NCBI GenBank assembly: GCA_037974665.1
Contig: CM075771.1
Span: 34,456,425 to 34,520,424 of the forward strand
Source of the DNA: Ehretia macrophylla
Lineage: Eukaryota; Streptophyta; Magnoliopsida; Boraginales; Ehretiaceae
Direction of reading: 5' to 3'
Length of the DNA: 64,000 nt
Shown here: piece by piece, positions 21,001-55,760 of the stretch
How the letters are laid out: the number at the start of each line of letters is the position of its first letter
Position numbering within the stretch: position 1 is the stretch's first letter
The notes under the pieces: generated by a model
The model's database searches: none
The model's input: the letters and a program-made list of their open reading frames with translations, nothing else
Told to the model about the DNA's origin: nothing
Program-made: the position numbers and the translations under genes

Positions 21001-23137
21001 TGGCATGCACACTAATGATGCTATTAGTTCAACAGGATTAACCTAGACTAAAATCTAATATCTTGAGTGGATATTTCAGGGTTTCAAGCATTGAAAGTAA
21101 GTCAAGTCATCCAATGGCATCAGCATTGGTCGACTATGCACAATCACATTCAGTCATTCCAAAGCCGGATAAAGTCGAGCAATTTCAAAATTTTCCAGGT
21201 GAAGGGATTTATGGAAAGATTGAAGGGAAAGAGGTATATGTCGGGAATAAAAAAATGTCCTTGAGAGCAGGGTGTGCCACAGGTGAATAACCTAACCTCT
21301 AAATCTCATATTTAATTCGGCAACAAAGGTCAAGATGGTCAGAATGAACTGACATGGAAAGTATTGTCTGAGTTGAACAAGTCTCTTTGTCAAAAGTTAG
21401 TGTCTGTCTCTCTGAATCGCTATAACAGAGAAGCAATTATTTACAAGTTTTTTTTTTAGTTCTCCAATTATCTATTTCGATTGAATTTGCAGTTCCAACG
21501 TTAGAAGATGATACTAGAGATGGAAAGTCGATTGGATTCGTATTCTTGGGATCATGTCCAGCTGGAATTTTCAGTTTATCTGATATTTGCAGAACTGGAG
21601 TGAAGGATGCACTCAAAGAGCTGAAAACGATGGGCATCAGAACCGCCATGCTTACTGGAGATTCTGATGGAGCTGCCAAACATGCACAAAATCAGGTATT
21701 TGAGAAACCCAAAAATTATAATAGCTTTGGAATTTTTTGGCTCAAAATCAATGCTCATATTGAGTATTGAATTGCTCGGATTATAGTCAAATTTCAAATA
21801 CCAAGTGGAAGTTTAAACAAAATTTGGTGATAGACGGATGAATATGTTTGCAGTTAGGGGGCGCTTTGGATATTATACATGCAGAACTTTTACCAGAAGA
21901 CAAGGCAAGAATCATTCAAGAATTTCAGAAGGAAGCACCAACTGGTATGATTGGTGATGGCCTCAATGATGCTCCAGCACTGGCTGCAGCTGATATTGGC
22001 ATCTCAATGGGTATTTCGGGCTCAGCACTCGCAACAGAAACAGGAAATGTGATCCTCATGTCAGATGATATTAGGAGGATCCCAAAAGCTACACGTCTTG
22101 CAAGAAGGGTTCGAAGGAAAATAGTTGAGAATGTGATCTTGTCCATATCTACCAAGACTGCCATATTGGCATTGGCCATAGCAGGTCATCCACTCGTTTG
22201 GGCTGCAGTGCTTTCAGATGTTGGTACGTGTTTGCTGGTGATCTTCAACAGCATGCTACTTCTACAAGGAACACATAGACATGGAAGAAAATGTTGCAAA
22301 ACTGTTGTTGCCTCACATGTCCACAAAAGTGAATGCACAACTAGTTGTCACTCCTCTCATACTCATCAACCTTGTCCTGATATTGATAGTCATGAGAAGC
22401 ATGAGCTAAAAACATGCTCTTATGATATGCGCGATGAAGAGTGCCAGTTGGGCCCTCTAACTTCAAACTCCTGTGGGAACAACACGTGCTCGGGATCCAT
22501 TGACAAGCATGGTTGTCATTCGCATAATAATCAACTAAACGAGGCAAAAGGCATGGATCACGGAAGTTGCAACATTGTTGTTCAAGACAGAGGATCATGT
22601 GGTGGACATGATCATGGTTGTCTAGATCACTCAGCTCCCCAAGAGGAAAATGAATCTGCAAACTCAATTCAAAGGCACAGTGGCTGTGCAGCAGATGGTG
22701 AAATCCATGACACAGAAAATTGCAACCATATCAGCCATAGTTTGACTGCTCATGACGATTCTACTTGTTCTTTAAAAGTAGGCCAACTCAATACTTCTAA
22801 CAATAACTGCAAGGCAAACTGCTGTACAAGCGAATCCAGTAATCAACTCAGGGACGAAGAGATAGGGAACCTAGTTAGAAAATGCTGCAAGTCTAAACCG
22901 TCAAATCAAGAAGTTCTTTCCAGGTGCAAGAAGCATGGTACAGAATGCGGCGTACCAGTTCGTTCAACCATTAATATCTTACGAGGTAATAGCCACGTAA
23001 ACTGCAACGCTGTTAAGGCCTGTTCCACCTTAGAGAAGAGACAGATTGGTGGATGCTGCAGGAAGGAATGTTGTGCTAAGAGCGCACATTTAGGATCTAG
23101 TTTCAGAGGAGGCCTATCTGAAATTGTGATTGAGTAG
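11536..23137 (+). CDS. HMA2: P1B-type Zn/Cd-transporting ATPase, HMA2/HMA4 type (9 exons, 989 aa)
   Basis: ATP-driven export of Zn2+ and Cd2+ across a membrane; in Arabidopsis this clade works at the plasma membrane in root-to-shoot loading. Exons: 11536-11737, 14923-15180, 18423-18520, 19296-19551, 19768-19905, 20337-20664, 21080-21282, 21493-21695, 21854-23137. All introns are GT-AG and all phases agree. Motifs: N-terminal metal-binding GLCCSSE at residues 21-27 (the Zn-type GxCCxxE), actuator TGES 249-252, transmembrane CPCA 353-356, phosphorylation site DKTGT with D397, HP at 437-438, TGDS 549-552, GDGLND 596-601. After the last membrane segment a tail of about 290 residues (700-989) carries about 29 Cys and 24 His, with CC pairs, and ends in EIVIE. 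AtHMA2 is 951 aa, so this is full length. The long metal-binding tail argues for HMA2/HMA4 rather than the shorter HMA3; HMA2 versus HMA4 needs a tree. Confidence 0.93.
11909..12100. repeat. Dispersed repeat in HMA intron 1 (copy of 38655-38845)
   Basis: This shares 'cagacacccaaa', 'agggtgtgca', 'gaaagagat' and 'caatataatgattt' with 38655-38845, in the same order and orientation. An (AT)n tract at 12007-12038 has expanded in its middle. It is probably a small TIR or retroposed element; its superfamily is unknown. Confidence 0.55.
12007..12038. repeat. (AT)n microsatellite in HMA intron 1
   Basis: About 16 AT units followed by a poly-T run. Confidence 0.9.
12694..13615 (+). mobile_element. 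Retroposon-like insertion flanked by a 16-bp direct repeat (HMA intron 1)
   Basis: A perfect 16-bp repeat, 'aaaggtgggctaagaa', lies at 12694-12709 and 13600-13615. The insert between them begins 'gagcctagtggtaagc', resembling a tRNA A box. It has a B-box-like 'ggtttgaatcc' near 12818 and ends in an A-rich run at about 13586-13599. Long TSDs plus an A-rich 3' end are typical of LINE/SINE-type retroposition. A second repeat, beginning 'ggcggagccagg' near 12966 and ending in a GC-rich stretch around 13485, may be nested in it. The insert is long for a SINE (890 bp), so it is probably composite. Confidence 0.6.
14080..14502. mobile_element. MULE-like MITE in HMA intron 1
   Basis: The ends are inverted (left 'gggtaaatagc', right 'gctatttaccc'), with a perfect 9-bp TSD 'ttatatata' at 14071-14079 and 14503-14511. 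The interior is a ladder of short units of the type 'agctgattacccccctat', in direct orientation in the left half and inverted in the right half. No coding capacity. Confidence 0.85.
15981..16150. mobile_element. Small MITE in HMA intron 2, about 170 bp
   Basis: The left end 'gagtaatgttagatgt' mirrors the right end (reverse complement 'cgagtaatgttaaacatc'), with a T/A-rich centre. TSD unclear. Confidence 0.55.
17128..18073. mobile_element. AT-core TIR element, family A copy 1 (HMA intron 2)
   Basis: The termini are 'ggggcgtttggttc' and 'gaaccaaacgccc', and 'cgta' occurs just outside both ends. The outer 200-240 bp on each side are ordinary sequence. The core of about 500 bp is a long low-complexity run of TTTTA/TTATT units. 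It is clearly homologous to 60687-61717, in the same orientation, sharing for example 'atgtttggttagactcaat' and 'acatgggaatagaaatt'. No transposase frame. Confidence 0.8.
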
Positions 23138-31043: not shown

Positions 31044-31186
31044 GAGCTTTGCATGAAGAGGTAGAGAGTGGGTTGCAGCCAAGGATGACTTGCCGGCATT
31101 TTGCAATGCATGCACTCTACAATTGTAGACAGGCCGGCAAGTTTGTCCTTGGCTACAGTTTGCTTTCTTCTTCTCATGTGAGGCTC
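31044..31186 (+). ncRNA. MIR169: MIR169 precursor, copy 1
   Basis: The mature 21-nt miR169 sequence lies on the 5' arm at 31076-31096, starting CAGCCAAGGATGACTTGCC and ending GG (the miR169b/c-type end). The star sequence is on the 3' arm at about 31136-31156 (GGCAAGTTTGTCCTTGGCTA). The pairing has one small internal loop, of two against three bases. The lower stem extends from 31044 (gagctttgcatgaaga) to 31186 (tctcatgtgaggctc), and the terminal loop is short. miR169 guides cleavage of NF-YA transcripts and responds to drought and nitrogen or phosphate status. A second copy in the same orientation lies 5.5 kb downstream. The star has one extra T compared with the second copy. Confidence 0.93.
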
Positions 31187-36540: not shown

Positions 36541-36819
36541 CTTGCATGAAGAAGCAGAGAGTGGATTGCAGCCAAGGATGACTTGCCGGTGTTTCATGCA
36601 TCAGAATTGGTTGCAAATGCAGCTGCATGGAACATGTCCGAAATGAAATCTCTGTTCATAACATTACGATATTACAAGCGAGATTCAGATAGTTGTGAAC
36701 CCAGCCCTGATCATATCGTTATGTTATTACAAGGGGATCCTCGCTCGCATGGAATTAATATGCCTGTCTAGCCGGCAAGTTGTTCTTGGCTACATTTTGC
36801 TCTCTTCTTCTCATGCAAG
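36541..36819 (+). ncRNA. MIR169: MIR169 precursor, copy 2 (large loop)
   Basis: The mature 21-nt sequence at 36569-36589 is identical to the one at 31076-31096. The star lies at 36774-36793 (GGCAAGTTGTTCTTGGCTAC) and pairs without a bulge. The lower stem is long: 'cttgcatgaagaagcagaga' at 36541-36560 pairs with 'tctcttcttctcatgcaag' at 36801-36819. About 184 nt separate miRNA and star, against about 39 nt in copy 1, and the loop contains possible side hairpins. Copy 1 and copy 2 share arms and lower stem but not the loop, as expected for an old tandem duplication. An open frame at 36583-36771 crosses the loop and is not considered real. Confidence 0.92.
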
Positions 36820-39381: not shown

Positions 39382-42300
39382 TTACCTGAAAATAACAAGA
39401 GAAAACGAATGACACCAAATTAAGAAAAAATATATTTTGAGTCCAGAGAAAATGTTGTTCACCGAACCTTTTATAAACAGCAGTTACATCTTCGTTTAAG
39501 CGTGGTGTTTCCAGAAACACATCATCACAATTCTTCACATCTACGGATTCCATCACAAAATCTTGATTACCAGAATATTCATTCCATTCAAACCACATCT
39601 TCGCGATGGATTCTTTTCTAAAGCAAGTTTCATGGTCCTCCTCCTCCGGTGAACCAGAGGCAACCAATCTATATGTGAACACCTTCCGCAGCTGCCCAGG
39701 CCGGAATGCACGTCCAATGGCTTGGCGAGTAACAGATGGGTTCAGATGTACATCCAATATAATGATACGGGATGCTCCTACAAGTGATATCCCTTCACCA
39801 CATGCTTTAATCGATCCAAAAAAGACTCTAGCATCTGGAGAAGTGTTAAAGCGCTCCATTGATGTCTCGCGCAAGTCGGAGTCAGAGTCACCTGTGATCA
39901 TGAAAATTTCCTTTCCAACGCTGTAGCTTTTCACCTTCATAGTTAGTCTCTCCAGGAATTTCAGTGGCAAGAGATACTGGCTGAAAACGAGCAGCTTCTC
40001 CCCACTCGATTCACACAGCTGGAGAAGATTCAAGTAGAATTTGGCCTTCACTCCTTCTCTTGCTTCCAATTTCTCCAAAAGCATATCTATTTTCTGCTCA
40101 TCAACCCTATCTTTAACTACAGTATTCTTCGAAAGAGTCTTCAACTGTGGATGTACATATAATGCACTGCCTTCAGCACTTATTTTAAATTTTCTGTTCA
40201 ATCTTCTAAGCTCTGAAACTTCTTTTGTCTGGCTAGGGCTGAGTTTGAGGAGGACGGTGAAGTCAACAAGCCCTGGTAGTTCATCCAAGAAATCACCCCT
40301 GTAATAATGAAGGATTTTGCTGGTCATCTCCCGCAGATCCTTTATCACAGTCACTTTCCTCTTTAAATTATCATCTTTCAGTAGCGTGTGCTCAACTAAT
40401 TCAAAGAATTCATTGTCTGAACTCTTTTTCAAAAGACCCCTTTTACCAGATATATGCGCTCTGCTCAAGATACGTCTTTTGATAGCTTTAGATGTCTCCA
40501 ACCTCAGGAACTTCGGACGTACAAGATTCAAAATATTGAAAACCTCCTTCACATGGTTTTGGTAAAGAGTACCCGAGAGCACAACCTTTCTGGGTGTCTG
40601 AACCTTCTCAAGAGAGGTCAACACATCAGTATCCTGATTTCTGGGAGTATGACCCTCATCCAAGATAAGAATTGAGGGGCAAGTCAGCAAGATCTCTTGA
40701 CATGCAGCAGCCACCTTGCTGGCATCATTATCACATACTATTGACGAAAACTGCTTATATCCTAAAAACAAAATACTTCGATTTTCTGCCCATTGCTTTA
40801 AAACCTCGAGCTGCTGGGATCTACCATCTGCTTTGGCCGAGTAAAAGTCATAAAGTGGAATATCTTCCACTTGCCATCTTTCAAATTCCTTCTTCCAAGT
40901 TGCCAAGATGCCTCTTGGTAGTACAACCAATGGCCTTGCAAAAGGATATTTGGCCATGAAACTCTGTAAGAAGCTGATGATCATAAATGTTTTCCCAGAT
41001 CCAGGAGCATGGGCCATGATACAACCCCCAGGGTCATCTGCCACTAAGTTGCTTACCAGAAAATTGAAGCCCTCAACTTGGTGAGGTTTCATTTGTTTCC
41101 AATGCCGAGGATGAGCAGCGATTTCAGTAACAGAGAAATCCTGCCCACCTAATTTTGACCCATCAAAAACAATTTCATCACCATCCATTTTCTTAGCTGT
41201 CCGACCTTCATATCTATAGGTCTGTGTATTCTTTGTGCCCTAAACCAAATAAAAAAATCTTATCAGGAAATGCATTACAAATCTCAACCTGAAAAAGACG
41301 TTTACTTTCCCAAGTAATTTACAGTAAAACCTCTTAACCAGCAGAATTTGGTAACATCAATACATCATCCACTAATTGGCATGACTGATCTAAAACAGCG
41401 CACAAGATTTAAATAGAAGAAATTCAAAATGAGAGAGCGGAAGGCAACAAAAAGACAAACTTTGATGCTCCAACTTCCACCCATCAGTAAACAAACCAAT
41501 TATAAACACAGGGCTAAGGATCCATTAAAAATGGCACATGATACTAGTACACAAAGGACCACTCCAAGTACAATTGATTTATCTGATGTCCCCAGTCGAA
41601 AAGTTACTGGAGAAGAAAAAGAATTGACATGTTTGGCGTGGAGCAACCGGAGGAGTCGTCCATCATAATACAGTGTGACTGTCACAATAAATAACTTAAG
41701 ATAGTAAAACAATTTGTAATAGTAATTGCAGCTATTGAAATGCATGAATAGGTCATAGAGAAGACAACTGAGTGTAAGATACAGCTACTTACACTAGGGA
41801 CGGCAATGAGGATGGCCTTTGTTGGTACCCACCCTGCCCCCACCGCAAATGGGGATTATTGGGGCAAGAAATGGGGTGTAGGGGTTGAATTTTGTTCCTC
41901 ATGTGGGGGCCAAGCAGGACGTGGGGATAGGCCTTCCTTGCCTCACATTCCTCGCCCCACATTCATGTAAAATTATTTATCTACCTGATAAGGAGAACTC
42001 AACTAACTAACTCAGACTCTATTACTATCTCTGTATTACTTAAGCAGCAAGATTAGAGTTAGTATTAGTTAGGCTTTGGACTGACAGCTGGATACAGACT
42101 GTCAGCCCAAGAGGATCATGGCACTGCAGTTAGAACTCAGTCCATTTCTCTATAAATACTTGTACAGTGTATTCACAGTTATTAAGCAATAAAATTTCAC
42201 TTTTCAGATTCTCTTATTTCTCTCTCTAGATAGGTTTCTTACATGGTATCATAGAGCCATTTTTTTTTTTTCCTGATCCGCCATTGGAGATCATCCACAA

Positions 42301-45300
42301 TTCTCCATTAAAGCTTCAATCTGCAGCTTTCTTCAGACAGACGAAGCTCAACTGTGCAGAATTCAAAGAGATCAATCTCGAATCTGCACAACTCCAAACC
42401 CTAATTTCACTTCTTCTTGTTACTCCATTGGAGAACACATCAAATCACCATTTCTGTTGCATTTTGAAGCTTGGATTACTCAATCGAAGGCTCAACAAAG
42501 CTCCTTCTTGCATCATCTGCAGAAATTAGCTTCCAATCTTCCTTCTCAAACCCTACTTCTCAATTTTGCCCTAATTCTCATCATCTTCGTACCCTAGTTC
42601 TCATCTCTGATTCAAGTCTTCATCTTCATCCATGGATGATCTCAATCTTCCTCCAAAATTGAAGCTCCTCATTCAGAGCTTCAATTCTCTGGTGCATGTT
42701 AAGCTTGACAACAACAATTACAACATTTGGAAAACCCAAATGCAAACCATTTTGCTCGCTCACCATCTGTTCGATCATTTTACTGGAAAGACTCCTTGTC
42801 CACCACAGCATCTCACAGATGATCAGGGCAAAACCTCACTGAATCCAGCTTTTTCTACCTGGCATGACATTGATTTGCATTTAAAATCGTGTCTATTTGC
42901 ATCTATTTCCCGACCAGTTCTCCCACAAGTTCTACATCTTCCTACAGCTTCAGCCATTTGGGCTTCTCTTGAGCAAAGGTTCAATTCTATGAGCAGGTCT
43001 CATATTCAGCAGCTCAAACTGCAACTTCACAATCTGCACAAAGGAACTCAAACTATGCAGGCTTACATAGACACAGTTAAAACTATCAACAGTCAGTTAG
43101 CATCTGTAGGAGAGATCATTCAAGATGAAGATCTTGTTCTCTATGTTTTGAAGGGACTTCCTCCTGATTATGAGTCCTTCAAAGCCTCTGTTAGGCTCAA
43201 GGATACTCCCATTTCTACTCCTACTCTCTTCAGTCACCTTCTCACTGAGGAACTTCATCATAATTTGGCTCACAATTTTACCCTCTCAGACAACACCTCC
43301 ACAGACCTACACTCTGCACTATATACTAACAGAGAAGGTCCAAGAGGCAATTCTCAGAGAGGCAGAGGTAGAAACTCCAATAACAGAGGGGGCAGAGGAC
43401 AAAGAGGCCAAGGCAGAAGCTATTCCAATCTCCAAGGGTCTTCTTAGTCTCTCAACCCTAACTCTACCAACTCCAATGCTCCTCTGTACTGTCAGATTTG
43501 TGGTAAAAGAAATCACTCCGCTTTGGAGTGCTGGCACCGACTTGACACCTCAAACTACTCTGCAGTTCCAGCTGACAAGCAAGTCTACTCTGCCCAAACC
43601 AACTACTCAGCTACTTCATCATCTTATCCATGGTTATTGGACTCAGGAGCTAACACTCATGTGACTAATGACCCCAGTCAGATTCTCAACCCTCAGCCTT
43701 ATACTGGTTCAGACTCTGTCTCAGTTGGTAATGGCACCTCTCTTTCTATTAACAGCATTGGTTCTGGTATACTTCACACTCCCTCTGCTTCCCTGCATCT
43801 TTCTAATGTGTTATATGTTCCTAATATCTCTTCCAATCTCTTATCTGTTTACAAACTAACCAAAGATAACAATTGTACTGTGATTTTCACTGAAAAGGAA
43901 GTGACAATCCAGGACAATTCTACTTCCCAGGTCACGTACCAAGGCCCCTGTGACAGAGGCTTGTACCCCCTACCATCTTCACTTGCTTCCACAATCAATC
44001 TAGTGCAACACACTCCAATCTGCAACCCTACTCAAGTCTGCACTCCTGCAACTTTGTGGCATTACAGACTGGGGCACCCATCCAGAAATGCATCTAATAT
44101 TCTTTCCTCACTTCTGAATGTCAAGCTCAACTTCACTTCTGCTGAATGTTCTTCTTGCTTAGCTGCTAAGTCTCACAAAATGTCTTTTCCTGTATCTCGT
44201 AGTACTACTACTTCTGCTTTTCAATTAGTGCACTCTGATGTATGGGGACCTTCCCCAGTGTCATCTTGTATGAACTTCAAGTATTATCTAGTTTTCCTAG
44301 ATGATTTTACCAACTATACATGGATTTATCCTCTCAAGCAAAAATCTGAAGTTTACTCTGTTTTTGTTCAATTTACTATTATGATTCATACTCAGTTTGA
44401 TACCAAAATCAAAATCCTAAGAACAGATAATGGGACCGAGTTTGTAAATCGTAACTTGTCTTCATATCTGCAATCTCTAGGCATAGTTCATCAAACAACA
44501 TGTCCACACACACCAGAACAAAATGGCAAGTCAGAAAGGAAAAACAGACATTTAATAGAGACTGCCATCACTCTTTTACAACAGGCTCATCTCCCACCTA
44601 AATATTGGTTAAAAGCTGTTGCTACTGCCAATCATCTCATCAATAGACTACCTACATCAACCCAACATAATCAAACACCATATGAATCTTTGTTTAATAT
44701 TCCACCTGACTATACCCTTCTAAAAGTGTTTGGATGTCTGTGCTATCCTTTGCTCAGACCCTATTCCACACACAAGTTAGAGGTCAGATCAAAACCCTGT
44801 CTTTTCTTGGGATATTGCCCTACAACCAAAGGCTATAAATGCCAAGATTTACAAACTCACAGGCTATATATCTCAAGGCATGTCAGATTTCTGGAAAATG
44901 TGTTTCCTTATCCTACTACCAACTCTCTTGATTCCTCTAATCTCTTTTCCTTATACTCTCAGTTCACCACACCTCCTCCCCCACCTGATCCAGTTCCCCA
45001 CTACACTCCATCTAATCCACCCTCTGCTCACACTGAATCATCTACTTCCTCTTATTCCCGTTTCCCACCACCTGCGCCTGAACTCATACTCTCCTCCCCT
45101 GTTCCCACTTCTCCTTTATCTCTAACTGTTTCCCCCCAGCATCCACCTTCCACTTCTCTCACAGAGAATTCTGCTGCCACTCCCACAGAAAATTCTGCAA
45201 CTACTCCCACAGCGAATTCTCCTCCTTCTGATTTTTCCCTGTCTCCTCTCCCACTTCCCACACATATCCATCCTATGCTAACCAGATCACAAACTGGCTG

Positions 45301-48300
45301 CCTTCCCCCTCCTCTATATAACCTCAACACTCTCATCACCACACCACCCTCAACTGAACCCTTAACTTACAAAGAAGCTGCATCCTATTCAACCTGGCAA
45401 CAAGCTATGGCTGAAGAATATCAGGCCCTCCAACAACAGAAAACTTGGAATCTTGTTCCCTTACCCTCCAACAGAAAATCAATAGGCTGTAAGTGGGTCT
45501 ATAGAATTAAGAAACATGCTAATGGGTCCATAGCTAGGTTCAAAGCCAGGTTAGTAGCCAAAGGCTATCACCAAGAGCATGGTCTGGACTACACTGAAAC
45601 ATTCAGTCCAGTTGTCAAACAACAAACTATTAGGATTGTTCTCACCCTGGCAGTCACTTACAACTGGCCATTAAAACAATTGGATGTCTCAAATGCATTC
45701 TTACATGGCATTCTTAATGAAGAGGTCTACATGACCCAACCTCAAGGTTTCATTGATCCCACTTATCCTTCCTATGTTTGCAAATTAAACAAGTCTCTCT
45801 ATGGCCTCAAACAGGCCCCAAGGGCCTGGTATCAAATGCTTCATTCCTTCCTTCTTAACCAAGATTTCAAATGCAGCCAAGCTGACACATCTTTGTTTGT
45901 TAAGCTTAGTACTCAGTCAATACTCATTGTCCTAGTTTATGTAGATGACATCATAGTCACAGGTAATTCTAGTCTCTCTATTTCAGATCTCATTTCTTCT
46001 ATGGGTGCTCAGTTTGCAATGAAGGACCTTGGTCCACTAACCTACTTTCTTGGTCTTCAAGTCCAAACCACTTCTCAGGGTATTCTTCTCCATCAGCAAC
46101 AATATGTCACTGAACTGCTACACAAAGCAGGTTTAACTGCTTGTAATCCCTCCCCCACTCCAACATTTTCCAAAACTAACACTATTCCCCAAGCTCATCT
46201 GCTTCCTTATTCCAATCCTACTCAGTATAGGAGTCTCGTAGGAGCCTTACAGTACCTAACTATAACCAGACCTGACTTACAATATGTTGTTAACACCCTT
46301 TGTCAACATATGCATAACCCAACTGAGGGAGATTTCTGTTCTCTGAAGAAGGCATTGAGGTATGTTAAAGCAACAATCAGTCAAGGGATCTATTTCAGAA
46401 AGGGCAGTCTTCAACTCACAGCTTTTTCAGACTCTGACTGGGCAAGTGATATCACTGACAGGAAATCTACTACTGGTTACTGTGTTTATCTAGGTCACAA
46501 CCTTATTTCCTGGTGTTCTAAGAAGCATCCCACTGTGGCTAGGTCTTCCACAGAGGCCGAATATAGGGCTATGGCTCAAACAGCCTCTGAAATCAAGTGG
46601 ATATCCTACCTCTTGGCAGATTTAAAACTCCCTTCGACACTCCCTACTTTATTTTGTGATAATCAGTCAGCACTAGCTCTAGCAGCCAATCCAGTTTTTC
46701 ATGCTAGAACTAAACACATTGAAATAGATTATCATTTTATAAGGGAGCAGGTGGTGTCTCAGCAATTGCAGATTTCTTATATTCCTACTGCAGACCAGGT
46801 TGCAGACATATTCACTAAAGTGCTCTCCAAATCACAGTTCTACACTCTCAAAAGCAAACTGCCTTTGGCTCCTGCCACCGACAGTTTGAGGGGGGATGAT
46901 AAGGAGAACTCAACTAACTAACTCAGACTCTATTACTATCTCTGTATTACTTAAGCAGCAAGATTAGAGTTAGTATTAGTTAGGCTTTGGACTGACAGCT
47001 GGATACAGACTGTCAGCCCAAGAGGATCATGGCACTGCAGTTAGAACTCAGTCAATTCCTCTATAAATACTTGTACAGTGTATTCACAGTGATTAAGAAA
47101 TAAAATTTCACTTTTCAGATTCTCTTATTTCTCTCTCTAGATAGGTTTCTTACAATACCCTTATTTATTTACATGTACTAAAATTCCAGGGTTGTAAATA
47201 TAGAGAACCACTCACAAGCCATCAACCTAGATTTCAAAACTCTACAACTATAAATATAATAAATTAATCTTGTCCCTTTAGTTAATTGTTCAATGGCGAG
47301 TGATACATCTTGTCCTACTTATCATGATGAGGAGTCCAATGTATATTGTACTACTTGACATTCCCAAGTAGCGGATACTACTGAGATCTAGAAACTAAAG
47401 ATCAGTATTATTTTTCCTAACAAAACTAAATATCTGTATTTATTTTTCTAATCTGTATTTGTTTTTCTACAAAACTAAATACATTAATTTCTCATGTAAT
47501 TAGTATTTGACCTGTAACATCATATCCTTTGCGAATTGACAGAGTGATTAAGTCAAGAAAAATATTAATTGGGAATATTTCAAGCCTTGATCTTAATCTT
47601 CAGACGACATTTTTTTGGACATCTTTACCTGTAGTTTTCATGTTCAAATGTTATGGTTGACACTTCTTTTAGATGCTTAAAACTAGGTCAATGCAAAGAC
47701 ATAGTTAATCAAAATGATATATTTACTTTTTCAATGGAGACATGAAGCTCAATTTGTAATCCATATTTCTCTTTCTAACATTTATGTTAATATTTTTAAT
47801 TTTTAGAATTTTGGTCTAAGTTTTCAAATTTTGTGCTATAAATTAATCTCAATTTTGCATAGTTTAAAAGAAAAAAGAAAAACCGTGCGGGTAGTCCCCA
47901 TCCCACATGTGGATTTGGTAACAGGGCAGGACATGAGGAGATGTCTCCCCACCCCAAACCCGTCCCATTGCCATTCCTAACTTTCACTATTTTAGAGAAT
48001 ATGAAAACATCAAGTTGGGATGACATATTTCTTTCATTTGCAGTTGATGAATATCACCCCATAATTTGATCCAATAGAATTTAAAATGTCGGAGCCTTTG
48101 GCCATAAGATTTAATTAGAGTTATTAGCACTATATGGCTGTGGGAAATTGGCCATATTGCTATGGTCATAAAGCAGTTCCATCTGTCTATACTTAATTAA
48201 ACCAAAGATGAATAAATTTGGACAAGAAAATAAATTTCTGCCTGAAACAAATAAGAAAAGCAAAAGAGACAGCACACTCAAAACATGCATAATTCCACCT

Positions 48301-51300
48301 TAGAATCCAAAGTAAAAGGATATTGCATATGATATTTCCTTGAACACAGTTGACCCACAACGATATAAACTTGGCATGCAACTACATCAATAGTGTATGT
48401 ATTCTTTGACAAATGTCCATTCAGGTGCCCCGAAGTACCGAAACAGCACAAAAGTATTCACAGTAGTAAAAATAGATTAATTGATTCTCTTCCTATTTGG
48501 TTGGAATAAAAGCCTCATTTATAAACAAACCATATTAAATTTCATCCACATAACTTCATACCTAACAAACATGTCTGAGAATACATCCACGTATAATTTA
48601 CTTTCTAAAAGCTAATTTTCAGTATTAAATCTTGATGCAGAAGTCCAAGTTTCAAAGTAATATATGGAGTAGCAACTAGAGGAAAATGAAAAGAGTGGAT
48701 ACAGAATAATGACCTTTGAGAATTGATACTCGATTATATTCTCGATTGCTTTCTGAATGATTCCACAAATTCGACATACATAGCCAATATCATCTTTAAA
48801 GATGAAAGAATGGTCACAGTCTTCTCCGTTTTCAGACTCATCTTCATCAAATGAAGCATCCGCTTCAGTATCCTGTTCAGATAACGCAACAGAGTTAAGT
48901 TAATGCCACAGGTATCTTTACATGGATCCTTCTTTACATGGATCCTTAATAGAAGCAAGGCAAAAGATCAAAGGACAGCCAACTTAATGGTCTCTTCCAT
49001 ATACAATAACACTTCTAACAATTTGAATGGTTTGGTAACTCCATGGAACAAGCAAAATCTACAAAGACCATTTTGACTGTAGAAGCAACATCAAGAAAGT
49101 ATTTTTGGTACTGAGAAAAATAGATAATTGGAGACTAAAGTATAAATAAACAAACCAAGCCTGATCCCATTGAGTGGGATGAGCTATATGGATTAGGCGA
49201 CACCATTCAATTCTGTTGATGTCATCTCCCTTTTAGCACCACAAATGCAAGATCTCATTTGGAAATTGAAGTATAAAAATACATGAAGAAAATATGAGCA
49301 AAGGTATCATAGACAAAATGAATGCATGTAAGCTTTTAGAAAACTGAATTTTGAAATACATCTAATGACACAAGTTTGACAGCCATAGGGATGACAACTT
49401 TATACCTTTTAAAGCTGAAAACACAACTCCTCTATTACAATTATAGTAGCTAGCTAACATAGGGTTTCATCACAAGTCCGTATAATGCAATGTCAATTCT
49501 TCAGTAAGAAACTTTAAACATCGATCCTTAATAAATAAACAAGACTGGGACCAATGAAAGCAGTTAACTAGTCCCTGATCTTCAATCCTGCCATTCACGA
49601 TGCTGTTAAACCATGTATGCACAAAAAACAAAAGTGTTTCAAAGGATAAATCAAGTACCAGAAGTCAAAAGGAAAGAAGAATCTTTCAGGTTATATGACA
49701 GTACTGTGGTTGATTAATAGATCAAATCTAACAATTGTGGCACTCTTGCCGTTTCTCTTATTTAAGCCTCAACTTCAACTTGTCACCAATTCCCATACAT
49801 GCTGCTTCTCAATAAAAAGGTATTTAGATTACCGTTTTCCAGTTACTTGTAACTGAGAATATCACCTAGTTACTGTATTCCACTTTAAGTACCTCTGAAC
49901 CATTACAAAGCACAGGATTGCAAGCTCTTATCATAGAGTCTACAAATGTTTCTTGTCAACAACTGGCCATCTAGGTTGCTATTCATCAGCTACTTGTAAG
50001 TTTGTATTAACCAATTAGAAAAGACTAGCAACATCACTTTATGTATCCTAACCCATTGAAGGCAAAGAGCCTCAGCATCTGATAAAGCTTAAGGCTCATT
50101 TAGTAGATTAGGTAGTTTCATGCTTCGTCGTACTCTTCTTTCTAAGGCTCGGGTACAAGATTCTTGTCCATTGTGTAGCCCTTTCCAGCTGACAGTTCAA
50201 AATCCTGCTCTTAGACCCCAGATGCAAATTTACATAGGACTAGCAATATTCCTCAGCTAACACACTCTCGGTCAGGGCCAAATCACCAAGGATACTATGT
50301 AAATACTCAGCATGATTTAAAGACTTTAGATCCTCATCTTATCCATTGAAAACCAGACCACCATTTGATAAAAAACCACAAATTTGAAAATGGTAACCTA
50401 CTTCTTTACTAGTAGTTAGGAGAAGAAAGCATACCTCATGCAGAATTTGTCCATGATACAATACTATACTCTCCTAGGTCCACATGAAAGATGGAACCTA
50501 CGCGCATGTGTCACCATGACGAAGTAGCTTCCACCTTATGTATATGTGACTAAACAATTTAAAATAAATTTTAGTTGAATGAGGAGACCCATACTTAATG
50601 TTCTGAAAAACTCCTATAAATACCGTTTGAGTTAACCCTGAACGAAATAAACTCAAGAGAATGAGGCCAAATGCAATTCTTGTAAGAAGCAAGAAAACTA
50701 AAACTTCTATGCTATGTTAAGGTGATTCTGCAAAAGCACATTGAAAACCCGGAGTGTTTACTTGATCCAGGATGTCTGGTGTATGTGCCATTCATAAGGC
50801 ACAATTAGATCATGTTTTGCGGACATATGCATAACCAGCTCCCAGCACACACGACATATACAAGGTAAAAGGGAAGGAAACAGTGATTGTTTGTTTCATA
50901 ACATCTGGGTCCGTTTTGCCTGCTACCTGTCATCTTCTAAAGATTCACTTTCACTTTCCTACTTAGGAAGAATAACGCCTTATCAAGATATTTGCTCATT
51001 AAACAAACCTTTCACAAATCAAAAATTTGTGTCACAAGGCCTAATCTGATACACCATGCAGAAAAATAATTTTCTTCTCATCTGACTTTATTGCAAAAGA
51101 TGTTTGTCCACAAAAGCTTAATTAAAGTAAGATTCGGCCTTTACTCCAAAGTTTCCTTAGATTATTTCAACAAAATAATATGTTAATAGGCCCAATATAA
51201 TTGTAGCATGAGGCAGTATAGAACCTAGACAACCCAAGGCCAACTGATAAACCTCACTACAAACTATGATGCCAAGTCATGGTCGATATGACTAAAAAAC

Positions 51301-52734
51301 ACATAAGGAATCAGTTTGCACAAGCAATTTGGTTGAGTAGCAAAAGTTAAAAATTCAGTTGCTACAATAAACCAATATCTAAAAGAATTACCTTAGCGCA
51401 CTCTATTGCGACATTCATTTCGTTCCAAATATCACCAAGTCCATCAGAATTGGCATCATCTTCATCTTCCATTTCCATATCCTCTTCACCAACATATATA
51501 CCTTTACCGCTTCCAGTTCCACCAGCTATCTTTCCATCTCCTTTTAAATTTTCATTTTGATAAGATTCCTGACCCTATTTATCATAAAGCACCAATTGTA
51601 GAAAAGAAAATTAGAAGGCAAGTCAAAAGGTCAACTTAAATGCAAGATAATTTAACATTGTTTCATCAAAAGGATTATGCAGTACTCCCAATTGGACGGG
51701 GAAAAGTGGGAAAGGGAGGCATTATTTCTTGCTAGGTCAAAATGTAAGACTATTATGTCATCAATCTCCCAAATCATAAAATAACAGATACAAGGAAAAT
51801 TGACATATATCAAAGTAATATGAAAAACCTCTAAGAAAATATTACTAGCCAAGAAAAGACCCTTCACACAAGTTCCTGTGAGATCCTATGTTGGGCCTCT
51901 GCAAAATATTCCGTACTAGAGTTAAGTGCTCCCCAGGGATTGGTATTTCTCTTTGGATAGCCATATTGGACCCACTGAATTTGAGGACCAGATAGTTTAT
52001 AGAAAAGCTTATGGAGCCAGGACTGGCTTTATGAGCTAGGCTATGGAGTCAAGGCGTGAAAGAATGTTATCAGTCCTCAGCCACCGAGAAGCATGGGAGC
52101 AAAATGTACTAATAAAGAGAGAAATTCTTAGTGAATAATTTAGCAGCAAAATATGAAAAAGAAAAATGTTATGGTTACAGGTCATTGTTAAGACTTCAAG
52201 TAATTAGGCTTCAGCAACTACAATGGAATCCTGGTAGAGCCATGAAACAGAACTAAAATTCTACATCGAACCTCCCTGTTTTGTATGGTACAAAGTGGGC
52301 ATATATGCTACAAGAAGGTTGACACTGGCATTGCACACTAAACTTCCCCTATACATGAGAAAGCAAGTGGAATCTAAGATTCACTACATAATTTCCATAA
52401 AGCTCTTATAACACCTTCGGGATCTAGGAATGCTGGCACTCAAAGATCCATTATAATAAGATAGACAAACATAAAAGCTCAGGAATGTTTTAAAAGATTA
52501 ACACAGTTCCCTAGACAGCCACGGAAAAAGGTACAATTTAAACGACAGCCAAACAAAGCCACAAAACAAGTGACAAACATGCACAAAAATCAGGTTTTAA
52601 ACCTAAGCATGCATGTTTGACGATCTAGGATATTTTCACCCTCATCTTTTTAAATTGTCTATTCTAATGTTGGTCGTATATAAGCTTGTATATTGTACGG
52701 CAACAAATTCAATTATGTATATATATATATATAG

Positions 52735-52766
<32 letters not shown>

Positions 52767-53999
52767 AATTCTGACTTAATCTTATGATATTAATAGAGAA
52801 AAGTAAGTCCATTACACAAAAATATACTGATTGCATAATTTCAAAGGTGACTGTATACAAAGTTCTCAGTAGTTTCAACCTAAAAGTAGGCCATCCATTG
52901 CACAAGGCAATATCCAAATAACCACTGCAATTTGAACTTCAACTAGGTTAAATAATTTAAAGGGTTAAGAAGTCCTGTTATATAGTTCCTGAACTCATGA
53001 CACACTCAGTTGCTTTAAGATCTGAACTTTGAAGAGAGTTAGACTTGTAATTATTCACTAAAAGCCTAGAAAGAATGGCAATTTACGAAGTCCACCGCAA
53101 CAAGTTCATCAACTAGCTATTTGACAATGAAGCAGAACGGAAACACGATTGTGTCTGTGCCAAATATTGTTTTATTAGTGTTACATGTATCAACAAGCTT
53201 CATTTTCAGATATGGGGTTGTTTTTTAAAGAACTTCAGAATATAGAACTATAATAGTGAAATCCAACATAGATACATTGGTTACATAGGAAAATGAACCA
53301 AGTCAATTCTCTTTAGATTTTGACCAAAAAAAAAAAAAAAATCTCTTTAGAGAAATTATGTCCCACCAAAAGCAGTTAAATACATGGCCAATTGCTTAAT
53401 TCCTGTTGGTGATAGATTTTAACCCTGCTTAGTTTTAAAATGTGTGGTTTTACAGGTATTGTCTCCATAAACAAAAAATGAAACATGCTTACCGCAAAAT
53501 CAACGAATGGAGAAATGCCAGCAGCCTTATTTAACAACACATCCTGATATGAAGCAAAAGGCTTCTCATTAACAAAATCTTCATCATCCGAATCAATGAT
53601 AACTACAGGCCCAACCAATGGTTTAAATTGTCCTGGTGGAACAGTGCCTGTGGCATGGTCATCCTCTAGATCAATGAGATCTGCAGTAACAAGTTCCTTT
53701 CCTTTTGAAGCGTCTTGAAAGAGGTTGTTTTCCACATCCAAGTTCTTATATAAAAGTGTAGGGTCCTTTGCATGTAAAGAGTTCACAAACTGAATTCTCC
53801 AAGTGATGAGGTCCTCCACATCTTTGGTAACACTTCCATATCTACCAGCATCCAATTCTTCCAAACACTTGACTAAAACAGATGGATTTGAGTAATCAAC
53901 AACTTTTGAAGAGATTTGGTGTTTCTTTTGCTCGAGTTCATAACGCCAGCATGCCCCATAGTTTGTGTCAGTACAACTGCTTCCTTCATTAAGTTTCAT
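39382..53999 (-). CDS. DRD1: SNF2-family remodeler DRD1/CHR35-type of RNA-directed DNA methylation (874-aa core model)
   Basis: DRD1 works with DMS3 and RDM1 (DDR complex) to allow Pol V transcription, so that siRNAs can guide DNA methylation in the nucleus. Coding exons on the minus strand: 53999-53493 (exon starts at 54012), 51574-51392, 48872-48714, 41239-39468, 39385-39382; all junctions are GT-AG and in phase. The N-terminal part has DRD1-like [17 protein letters not shown] and an acidic linker, then CDHSF...VCRICG. The helicase core is in the long exon: GSGKT 363-367, DEGH 477-480 (DExH box), LSGT about 504-507, [11 protein letters not shown] 789-799. The protein ends AVYKR, its last codon split by the final intron, as in Arabidopsis DRD1 (888 aa). 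The motif set fits DRD1 rather than the longer CLSY proteins. The true N-terminus is uncertain (see 56680-56768). Intron 41240-48713 holds nested transposons. Confidence 0.93.
41986..42243 (+). repeat. 5' LTR of the Copia element
   Basis: Begins TGATAAGG and ends TTCTTACA. It holds a TATA box (TATAAATA, 42151-42158) and a polyadenylation signal (AATAAA, 42188-42193). Differs from the 3' LTR at four positions, all in the stretch around the TATA box and the polyadenylation signal. Confidence 0.95.
42244..42258 (+). other. Primer-binding site
   Basis: TGGTATCATAGAGCC directly follows the 5' LTR. It resembles the initiator-Met tRNA complement (usual form TGGTATCAGAGC) used by plant Copia elements. 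Confidence 0.75.
42632..43447 (+). CDS. Copia gag-like protein (271 aa)
   Basis: N-terminal part of the Copia polyprotein, of the UBN2/Retrotran_gag type; it would form the capsid shell of the intracellular particle. It starts at the ATG at 42632 ([11 protein letters not shown]), 389 bp after the LTR. Near residues 25-35 it has the typical '[10 protein letters not shown]' segment, and a basic [14 protein letters not shown] tail just before the stop. The frame closes at TAG 43445-43447. The same frame then continues with a CCHC zinc knuckle and pol, so the stop lies inside what is normally one gag-pol frame. Confidence 0.85.
   Translation: MDDLNLPPKLKLLIQSFNSLVHVKLDNNNYNIWKTQMQTILLAHHLFDHFTGKTPCPPQHLTDDQGKTSLNPAFSTWHDIDLHLKSCLFASISRPVLPQVLHLPTASAIWASLEQRFNSMSRSHIQQLKLQLHNLHKGTQTMQAYIDTVKTINSQLASVGEIIQDEDLVLYVLKGLPPDYESFKASVRLKDTPISTPTLFSHLLTEELHHNLAHNFTLSDNTSTDLHSALYTNREGPRGNSQRGRGRNSNNRGGRGQRGQGRSYSNLQGSS
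43448..46921 (+). CDS. Copia pol: zinc knuckle, protease, integrase, reverse transcriptase, RNase H
   Basis: In the same frame as gag, downstream of the TAG; the first Met is at 43523. Order: CCHC knuckle ([14 protein letters not shown], 43489-43530), aspartic protease DSGA (43640), GAG-pre-integrase [10 protein letters not shown], integrase with the catalytic aspartate in HSDVWG (44237), DNGTEF and the downstream glutamate region, reverse transcriptase YVDD (45938-45949), and RNase H with DSDWASD, STEAEY and DNQSALAL. The frame ends at 46921, 25 bp inside the 3' LTR. No other stop or frameshift was seen over about 1,150 codons. With the TAG upstream, pol would need readthrough or internal initiation. 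Confidence 0.9.
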   Translation, partial: SLNPNSTNSNAPLYCQICGKRNHSALECWHRLDTSNYSAVPADKQVYSAQTNYSATSSSYPWLLDSGANTHVTNDPSQILNPQPYTGSDSVSVGNGTSLSINSIGSGILHTPSASLHLSNVLYVPNISSNLLSVYKLTKDNNCTVIFTEKEVTIQDNSTSQVTYQGPCDRGLYPLPSSLASTINLVQHTPICNPTQVCTPATLWHYRLGHPSRNASNILSSLLNVKLNFTSAECSSCLAAKSHKMSFPVSRSTTTSAFQLVHSDVWGPSPVSSCMNFKYYLVFLDDFTNYTWIYPLKQKSEVYSVFVQFTIMIHTQFDTKIKILRTDNGTEFVNRNLSSYLQSLGIVHQTTCPHTPEQNGKSERKNRHLIETAITLLQQAHLPPKYWLKAVATANHLINRLPTSTQHNQTPYESLFNIPPDYTLLKVFGCLCYPLLRPYSTHKLEVRSKPCLFLGYCPTTKGYKCQDLQTHRLYISRHVRFLENVFPYPTTNSLDSSNLFSLYSQFTTPPPPPDPVPHYTPSNPPSAHTESSTSSYSRFPPPAPELILSSPVPTSPLSLTVSPQHPPSTSLTENSAATPTENSATTPTANSPPSDFSLSPLPLPTHIHPMLTRSQTGCLPPPLYNLNTLITTPPSTEPLTYKEAASYSTWQQAMAEEYQALQQQKTWNLVPLPSNRKSIGCKWVYRIKKHANGSIARFKARLVAKGYHQEHGLDYTETFSPVVKQQTIRIVLTLAVTYNWPLKQLDVSNAFLHGILNEEVYMTQPQGFIDPTYPSYVCKLNKSLYGLKQAPRAWYQMLHSFLLNQDFKCSQADTSLFVKLSTQSILIVLVYVDDIIVTGNSSLSISDLISSMGAQFAMKDLGPLTYFLGLQVQTTSQGILLHQQQYVTELLHKAGLTACNPSPTPTFSKTNTIPQAHLLPYSNPTQYRSLVGALQYLTITRPDLQYVVNTLCQHMHNPTEGDFCSLKKALRYVKATISQGIYFRKGSLQLTAFSDSDWASDITDRKSTTGYCVYLGHNLISWCSKKHPTVARSSTEAEYRAMAQTASEIKWISYLLADLKLPSTLPTLFCDNQSALALAANPVFHARTKHIEIDYHFIREQVVSQQLQISYIPTADQVADIFTKVLSKSQFYTLKSKLPLAPATDSLRGDDKENSTN
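46885..46896 (+). other. Polypurine tract
   Basis: A G-rich run ('tttgaggggggga'-like) sits directly before the 3' LTR and would prime plus-strand DNA synthesis. Confidence 0.8.
46897..47154 (+). repeat. 3' LTR of the Copia element
   Basis: 258 bp, 254 identical to 41986-42243. It ends TTCTTACA and is followed by 'atacc'. Confidence 0.95.
49140..49255. repeat. Possible Au-type SINE remnant in a DRD1 intron
   Basis: The text 'cattgagtgggatgagcta' and 'tatggattaggcgac' resembles the conserved middle of plant Au SINEs (a 'tggggtcggctatatggat'-like stretch). Both ends are unclear. Confidence 0.35.
52717..52766. repeat. (AT)n(GT)n compound microsatellite in a DRD1 intron
   Basis: About 18 AT units with one interruption, followed by about 6 GT units. 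Confidence 0.9.
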
Positions 54000-55760
54000 C
54001 CTTTTCGGGTCTCTGGAAAAGAAATTTGCTACCAAAAAAAATGTACTAATGGTTACAAGTAATGTAGACAGTAGTTTGCACTCATTAGTAGAGAAGTCCA
54101 TAATGCTGAAGCAGTTCATAAAACTACTTTGACATGTCTATTCTGTTGATAAAAAGGATCTAATGAAGAAAGCTTTGTAACTACACTTAAAAGAGAAAAA
54201 GCAGAAGGTGAAACATGAAATTTTTTTGTAACTACATGAGGAGCGAATAAAATTTATACACAGATGTGCTATTTCAACATCTTTAACACATCTGGTGGTT
54301 TGACTTGAAAATATGGATCTTATAGCAAGAAAAATCAAATTAAAACAGTTCTTCAAAATTCCAAGAAGTATGCCTACTTTTGTAAGCATGGCATAGGCAT
54401 GCACAAGTATTTTAACCACTGGAAACTTCATACAGTATCTCAAAGGTTCAGAGTGATCTTGTTTTGCAGCATTATTTTCCTTCTCAGATCACAACCATGG
54501 AGCAGAATTCACATGTTATTTTGTATTGCTGGCCAATATCTCACTCCATATCACAGGCAGTACTTGGAATGACAAATTGCCATAGACAGAAATTGGAGGA
54601 CAATAGCATAATGGTTATCATAAATTATAAATTTTACAATCAAAAAGACATTGCAAAATTTCCTTAAAATAAGCATTTCCCACCAATCAATCAAGTACAT
54701 AAAGCTTGAAGCTTGTACTTGGCAACCACAACATTTTTCGATCACTTGGGAAATTATATCAAAAGAAAACATTATTGTCCACATCATGCTGGAAGGAGCT
54801 CAATTTTTTCAGGTGCCTAGAGAATATAACTAATACTGCTAATCGTTTACTTTTTTAAGATATTACAGCTCTCAATCTTTTTCATTTGGAAATAAGTAAC
54901 CGCTCATATAATATAGAGAAAAGAAGATTCAAATCCAATTTGAAAATGTTCCACCAAAAATCATCAAAGCGCCCTATTATAAATAAAATACAAGATGTCA
55001 TGCGTACATATTAGAAATCAAAGAGTGTCTGGACAGAAAAACATGGTAATAAACTCGCAAGCAACACCAAATAACTCACAAAAATTATGATTTTGCAGCG
55101 ACAGAGAAACATGATGAAGAATCAATACACCTTTATACGGATACATTGATGGAGAAAGATGATAAAATCATTTGGCAGAAAGGATGAGTCATTTAACCTG
55201 GGTCGAAGTGGAAACCACATCAATAACGCGGTAAATTTTGAATGTATTCACAGCACCTAGGTGAATACATAGTTGTTACAGGCGCACATGTTGGCAAAGC
55301 AGGATCATGATATATATATATATATATATAAATTTATATGGATCCATTTTGGGAAGAAAAAAAAAAAGGAATATAGTCATTTGACGTTTATGAGTCATTT
55401 AACCCCCACTTGAAGTGGAAAACGCATAAAAAAAGGTAGCAATTGGGATTCTACAGATCACAGGGTTGAATATTTCTTTGAGAAAGAGCAAAACAACATG
55501 AAGAAACGGCCTTCAAAATCTAATGACTCACTGCACCAAAAAAAAAGACCAATCCCAATAGATTATTGATAATATGAGAGCTTCTTAAACAGAAATGGTA
55601 CTAATGGAACATCCCTTTCTACCTGATGTGGCAAAGACGCTGCTTAAACATGATAAATAGCCATGCCAAATTCACTATCTTAGATGTAAAGATCGAATTG
55701 TATTTTCTTTCTTCATTTTTTCAAAGTAATCTTCATAAACATCAAGATGGAGCTACCTTG

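Follow-up and report, generated by a model that had tools for sequence, protein, structure and literature searches.

Among the systems closest to the locus described here are plant genes whose introns carry methylated repeats. In Arabidopsis Col-0, non-CG methylation is found in the introns of 109 of 705 genes with introns longer than 1 kb, and in most of those 109 the full-length transcript is unchanged when suvh456 reduces methylation, with IBM1 and PPD7 as the named exceptions (PMC11265718; here and below, statements from published work are those of the excerpts cited). According to the same excerpt, both the methylation of the IBM1 intron and the full-length IBM1 transcript are unaltered in drd1. 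RNA-directed DNA methylation (RdDM) helps to methylate intragenic transposable elements (TEs) in Arabidopsis; its intronic part is not, in the excerpt, strongly correlated with host transcription, and loss of methylation in the CHG context at intronic TEs correlates with downstream transcription defects, RdDM mutants excepted (PMC4417168). Silencing of an intronic transfer DNA (T-DNA) needs DRD1 for its start, while its persistence needs MET1 and DDM1 and not the RdDM factors tested there (PMC5364540), and in rice intronic TE methylation is affected on loss of OsMET1 and OsDDM1 (PMC7145194). DRM2 serves short TEs and the boundaries of long ones and CMT2 the bodies of long TEs (PMC7617993), and expression-dependent RdDM can target full-length elements (PMC4977677). 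Here we describe a Copia retrotransposon nested in a hAT-type element in an intron of a DRD1/CHR35-type gene of Ehretia macrophylla, within a stretch of 64,000 nucleotides (C8:34456425-34520424, hereafter the window) from a genome searched as 1.58 Gb in 20 contigs. The nest is probably not a built-in sensor; more likely, a member of a CG-poor Copia family inserted into the intron recently and is tolerated there. No title listed in the literature searches concerned a TE in a DRD1 intron, which is no proof of absence from print, and a narrow search on CG-free LTRs gave no paper.

The host gene and the nest in its intron

The gene lies on the minus strand and both elements lie in its third coding intron. 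The features needed below, which include the long terminal repeats (LTRs), terminal inverted repeats (TIRs) and reverse transcriptase (RT) core of the two elements, are as follows.

39382..54012, minus strand: DRD1/CHR35-type gene, from open frames, GT/AG junctions, Pfam and the match to 6OIT_G; 5′ end not settled
53493-54012, 51392-51574, 48714-48872, 39468-41239 and 39385 downward, minus strand: coding exons of this gene, with canonical junctions
53721..53870, minus strand: match to DRD1 ‘peptide 7’ in exon 1, residues 49-98 of the query, by PDB search
41240..48713, minus strand: third coding intron, 7,474 bp
41795..47979, no strand assigned: hAT-type element, some 1.0 kb once the Copia is subtracted, from TIR and 8-bp target duplication
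41986..47154, plus strand: Copia LTR retrotransposon, 5,169 bp, from LTRs and Pfam domains; antisense to the host gene
41986..42243, plus strand: 5′ LTR, 258 bp, zero CG
46897..47154, plus strand: 3′ LTR, 258 bp, zero CG
42632..43447, plus strand: gag frame, closed by an in-frame stop; Copia gag past the Pfam cut-off
43448..46921, plus strand: pol frame, with Pol_BBD, rve and RVT_2 by Pfam
45440..46165, plus strand: RT core, 726 bp, 0 CG dinucleotides

Exons, splice sites and reading frame of the gene are all intact. The intron runs from a GT donor at 48713-48712 to an AG acceptor at 41241-41240, and the last codons of the gene (ending YKR-stop) are split by a further intron and resume from 39385 down. 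Once the nest and one copy of the target duplication are removed, the third coding intron measures 1,281 bp, in agreement with the earlier estimate from the sequence of about 1.3 kb instead of 7.5 kb. Read in the direction of the gene, the nest shows no excess of any of four poly(A)-type motifs over 200 Markov resamples: AATAAA occurs 3 times (3.3 ± 1.9 expected), ATTAAA 3 times (3.2), TGTAA 14 times (11.1 ± 3.7) and TGTATA once (1.9). Early polyadenylation through added signals was rejected on this ground. Directly outside exon 3, at 48915-48946, a 16-bp unit stands twice in perfect tandem.

The identity of the gene as DRD1/CHR35-type is supported by its N-terminus and by its relatives in the same genome. 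The predicted protein carries PF00176 (SNF2-rel_dom, E 1.3e-24) and PF00271 (Helicase_C, E 4.2e-14), both past the Pfam cut-offs, while an NCBIfam scan returned bacterial helicases only, far under their cut-offs. With exons 1-3 joined to the beginning of exon 4 as query against PDB sequences, the top match was 6OIT chain G (E 0.0055), which is Protein CHROMATIN REMODELING 35 (CHR35/DRD1); the runners-up, at E 0.051 and 0.1, were chance-like. Chain G corresponds to peptide 7 of DRD1, the segment that binds RDM1 and DMS3; the cited excerpt reports its conservation among DRD1 proteins and no instance of it in other SNF2 proteins (PMC6718625). The match strengthens to E 6.6e-5 with the homologous exon of a paralogue, L031, and to 2.4e-7 with a two-row profile of the window gene and L031.

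L031 is one of four paralogue places fetched, chosen by frame length out of 87 PF00176 matches in the genome. Among the places examined there are two DRD1-type genes (the window gene and L031) and three CLSY-like genes (L029, L030 and L032); more DRD1-type copies, or a duplicate of the intron with an empty site, may exist elsewhere in the genome. The CLSY-like labels are putative and follow from how the frames are laid out, from acidic N-termini and from the three clades described in PMC12389316; a SAWADEE match in L032 falls under its cut-off. Searches with the largest open frame at the N-terminus of each of the three CLSY-like genes give no match to 6OIT_G at E<=10, and in a tree of six rows from this genome the window gene and L031 group together, apart from the CLSY-like rows, with support 100/99. 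Identity of the host gene as a CLSY gene was ruled out by the 6OIT segment and this tree. At least five coding exons place the gene within the range of 4-9 reported for the DRD1/CHR35 clade, a number that is not decisive by itself because CLSY1/2 genes mostly have five (PMC12389316). The sequence-only reading, which had placed the gene in the RdDM pathway as DRD1/CHR35, is thus upheld through the segment that binds RDM1 and DMS3.

The ATPase exons of the window gene and L031 are 78% identical, with nonsynonymous and synonymous divergence (dN/dS) of 0.138/1.68 over 587 codons. At the homologous place L031 has an intron of roughly 2.1 kb, and the nest has no match in L031, the closest of the four places fetched.

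The outer element is recognized by its ends. Its TIRs are identical at 12 of 14 positions (15 of 21 over a longer stretch), and an 8-bp duplication, ACTTACAC at 41787-41794 and ACTTTCAC at 47980-47987, flanks them with seven of eight bases identical. Between 41250 and 48689, 386 position pairs reach a TIR of 12/14 or better at any spacing; of these, the hAT ends alone add a duplication of at least 7/8 and a spacing above 500 bp. The left arm (191 bp) has at least 11 other matches in the genome and the right arm (825 bp) at least 50; since these are only 64-87% identical, the hAT family is taken to be old. Seven of the 11 other left-arm matches listed start at the first base of the element. No open frame of 150 amino acids is present in either arm, and we take the element to be non-autonomous.

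The inner element shows the Ty1/Copia order, with the integrase core upstream of RVT_2, and gag, integrase and RT reach their Pfam cut-offs. Its LTRs, which end in TG...CA, are identical at 254 of 258 positions, the four differences being one transition and three transversions, and the Kimura two-parameter divergence is 0.0157 (1.6%). At 1.3e-8 or 7e-9 substitutions per site and year, the insertion would be about 0.60 or 1.12 million years old, respectively. The putative target duplication, CTACC/ATACC, is identical at four of five bases. The claim that a Copia with nearly identical LTRs lies within a hAT element inside the intron holds to the base, and to it we add the antisense orientation of the Copia, the stop between gag and pol and the nest-free paralogue. 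That stop is shared by none of the five other copies examined, three of which have different stops or a shifted frame in gag; a programmed gag-pol stop is disfavoured on this account.

CG depletion and the other copies of the Copia family

The Copia holds 22 CG dinucleotides in 5,169 bp, an observed/expected ratio of 0.108. The ratio is 0.33 in the host part of the intron, 0.28 in the other introns of the gene, 0.35 in the hAT arms, 0.45 in the large exon and 0.47 in the whole window; the introns of the host gene are therefore also CG-poor, and the Copia lies well below them. CHG is not depleted, with ratios of 1.38 in the whole Copia and 2.2 in the LTRs, and each window LTR has 15 CHG sites. 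Each frame was compared with synonymous shuffles of its own codons: pol has 13 CG against 59 ± 5, gag 4 against 12.5 ± 2.4 and the host exon 35 against 53 ± 4, so that the exon is depleted too, though less than the Copia. In the RT core, the absence of CG compares with 5-21 CG in 30 other Copia RT matches, which are the best-scoring of 150 scored from 20,676 candidates and not a random sample.

Genome-wide, 19 LTR matches at >=90% identity form seven pairs spanning 4.5-5.3 kb and five others, and the family is low-copy. Twelve of these LTRs were read, including both LTRs of the window: 11 lack CG altogether, one has a single CG, and all 12 have 10-15 CHG sites. Internal pieces of 1.5 kb, window included, hold 8-13 CG in six copies at the 5′ end and 2-4 CG in five at the 3′ end. 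Because the other copies read are equally CG-poor, the depletion is a trait of the family, and decay at the window site was ruled out. With nearly no CG in the element, there is little for a MET1-type memory to hold.

Flanks were read at seven loci (window, C16, C4, C13, C2, C6:66.97 and C6:34.41), a survey to which C9, C15 and C10 do not belong. Exons supported by Pfam or PDB adjoin the family at three of them (window, C16 and C4), and each time element and gene have opposite orientations. The copy at C16:3441942-3447132, with LTRs identical at 259 of 259 positions, lies on the minus strand between plus-strand gene frames, one a long frame with an ATPase nearest SRCAP and SWR1 and the other with a Myb-like domain. 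To judge from these domains the frames look like an SWR1-type gene, and both presumably belong to one gene, PIE1. At C4:56044594-56044851, a single minus-strand LTR of the family adjoins plus-strand Nop14 exons. The C13 flanks hold coiled-coil frames with no supported Pfam match, C2 an IQ motif below cut-off only, C6:66.97 nothing above cut-off and C6:34.41, read on one side only, Copia-like gag frames by eye. With supported exons at three of the seven loci read, a family preference for genes cannot be claimed. That two copies lie within SNF2-family genes is a post hoc observation, to which we attach no statistical weight. Insertion of a Copia into genes is not strange in itself, since new ATCOPIA93 insertions in Arabidopsis go to H2A.Z-rich genes, with exons preferred (PMC6668482).

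A probable tolerated insertion and possible feedback

In the reading we prefer, the third coding intron of one of the two DRD1-type genes would first have received an old hAT-type element, into which a low-copy, CG-depleted Copia would later have inserted in antisense orientation to the gene. Splicing probably still takes place across the nest, as the intact exons and splice sites of the gene suggest, and non-CG methylation together with dimethylation of lysine 9 on histone H3 (H3K9me2) probably masks the Copia. RdDM may take part in this masking, mostly at the LTR edges, and the nest would have no large effect on DRD1 output. Tolerance is supported by the intact exons, splice sites and frame, by the dN/dS against L031 and by the lack of poly(A)-motif excess, as well as by the antisense copies of the same family in the SWR1-type gene and beside Nop14. 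It is further supported because most methylated-intron genes of Col-0 keep their full-length transcript in suvh456 (PMC11265718), and because RdDM-dependent intronic methylation is, in the excerpt, not strongly correlated with host transcription (PMC4417168). Several points weigh against it. The host gene is itself an RdDM factor, so that dependence of the intron's state on the gene's own product is conceivable; the LTRs lack CG, and the MET1 route described for the intronic T-DNA (PMC5364540) therefore has little to act on; tolerance is read from the intact sequence alone; and a dN/dS taken relative to an old paralogue is hardly informative on the past million years.

The sequence-only reading had proposed a loop in which RdDM methylates the intronic Copia and the resulting heterochromatin tunes DRD1 expression, as a homeostatic sensor resembling that of ROS1. 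That DRD1 activity adds methylation at the nest is a reasonable expectation; that the gene reads the mark back is not supported and has published evidence against it (PMC4417168, PMC11265718, PMC5364540). The DRD1-type identity of the gene and the precedent of IBM1, whose intron is able to sense heterochromatin (PMC11265718), speak for such a sensor. However, the IBM1 intron keeps both its methylation and its transcript in drd1 (PMC11265718), and RdDM-dependent intronic methylation does not, in the excerpt, track host transcription (PMC4417168). The nest is not kept between gene copies, as it has no match in L031, whose intron at this place measures roughly 2.1 kb, and the insertion is young. 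Either sign of loop is possible as well: the ROS1 product removes methylation and hence gives negative feedback, whereas a DRD1 gene needing its own methylation would give positive feedback. We regard the homeostatic sensor as highly improbable, and with a second, nest-free DRD1-type gene present, any loop would be expected to be buffered.

A loop of the destabilising kind, in which weak RdDM lets the CG-free LTRs wake and antisense read-out from the 3′ LTR over exons 3-1 lowers DRD1 further, seems quite improbable too. The geometry suits it, since the Copia is on the plus strand and the gene on the minus strand and read-out from the 3′ LTR heads toward exons 3, 2 and 1; both LTRs have zero CG; and an antisense ONSEN in the 3′ untranslated region (3′-UTR) of GER5 promotes antisense GER5 transcripts (PMC10241880). 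Yet with 15 CHG per LTR, CMT3/KYP could keep the element silent without RdDM, some 1.6 kb separate the LTR from the nearest exon, and the paralogue may buffer dosage. That the 6.2-kb insertion instead makes a mild loss-of-expression allele, slowing splicing or ending transcripts early so that output drops and L031 compensates, is unlikely: Col-0 genes with CHG-methylated long introns are generally less expressed (PMC11265718) and ibm2 and edm2 transcripts stop early inside the intronic T-DNA (PMC5364540), but the sense strand here has no excess of poly(A)-type motifs and exons and splice sites are intact. Finally, a hand-over from RdDM to MET1 needs CG, of which the Copia has few and its LTRs none; a failed hand-over would mean endless dependence of its silencing on CMT3/KYP and RdDM. 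We give very little credence to the resulting scenario, in which the CG-shed family escapes this hand-over, stays dependent on non-CG methylation and, through its antisense LTR, makes the DRD1 gene a reporter of the pathway or a self-undermining switch; the plentiful CHG sites mean that CMT3 could hold the Copia silent.

As a tolerated insertion, the nest still offers a clean test case, with one DRD1-type gene carrying a CG-free LTR and the closest paralogue fetched lacking it. A comparison of alleles or of paralogues, in the presence and absence of RdDM, would show whether silencing of a CG-free element needs RdDM continuously, and whether such silencing can in turn affect a gene of the pathway itself.

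Other window features and comparison with known systems

Elsewhere in the window, two MIR169_2 precursors past the Rfam gathering score lie about 5.4 kb apart on the plus strand, at 31065-31168 and 36558-36805. A plus-strand frame at 21842-23137, judged by eye, putatively encodes the C-terminal portion of a P1B-type ATPase that transports metals, with a tail rich in Cys and His.

Among the described systems, PPD7 of Arabidopsis and the heterochromatic introns of rice resemble the locus described here in having a TE-bearing long intron in an intact gene; unlike them, the window insertion is nested, sits in an RdDM gene and has a nearly CG-free inner element. The IBM1 intron shares with it the long, repeat-bearing intron of a chromatin-regulator gene. 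Methylation of that intron falls in met1, cmt3 and suvh456 and, in the excerpt, not in drd1 or ddm1, and the candidate sensor is reported widely in flowering plants (PMC11265718), whereas the window nest is of recent origin and has no match in L031, the closest paralogue fetched. ROS1 likewise has TE-derived sequence at a methylation-pathway gene. The likeness drawn to it from the sequence is imperfect, as the ROS1 region is 228 bp long, lies directly upstream of the gene and is experimentally shown, and the ROS1 product opposes methylation by removing it (PMC4380477). The inner element can be compared with ONSEN/ATCOPIA78, which also has a CG-free LTR and is found within genes, including the antisense copy in the GER5 3′-UTR (PMC10241880); the ONSEN LTR lacks both CG and CHG, while the window family lacks CG and retains 10-15 CHG per LTR. 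Set beside these systems, the nest is an ordinary kind of tolerated intronic transposon insertion with one uncommon feature, the CG depletion of its Copia family.

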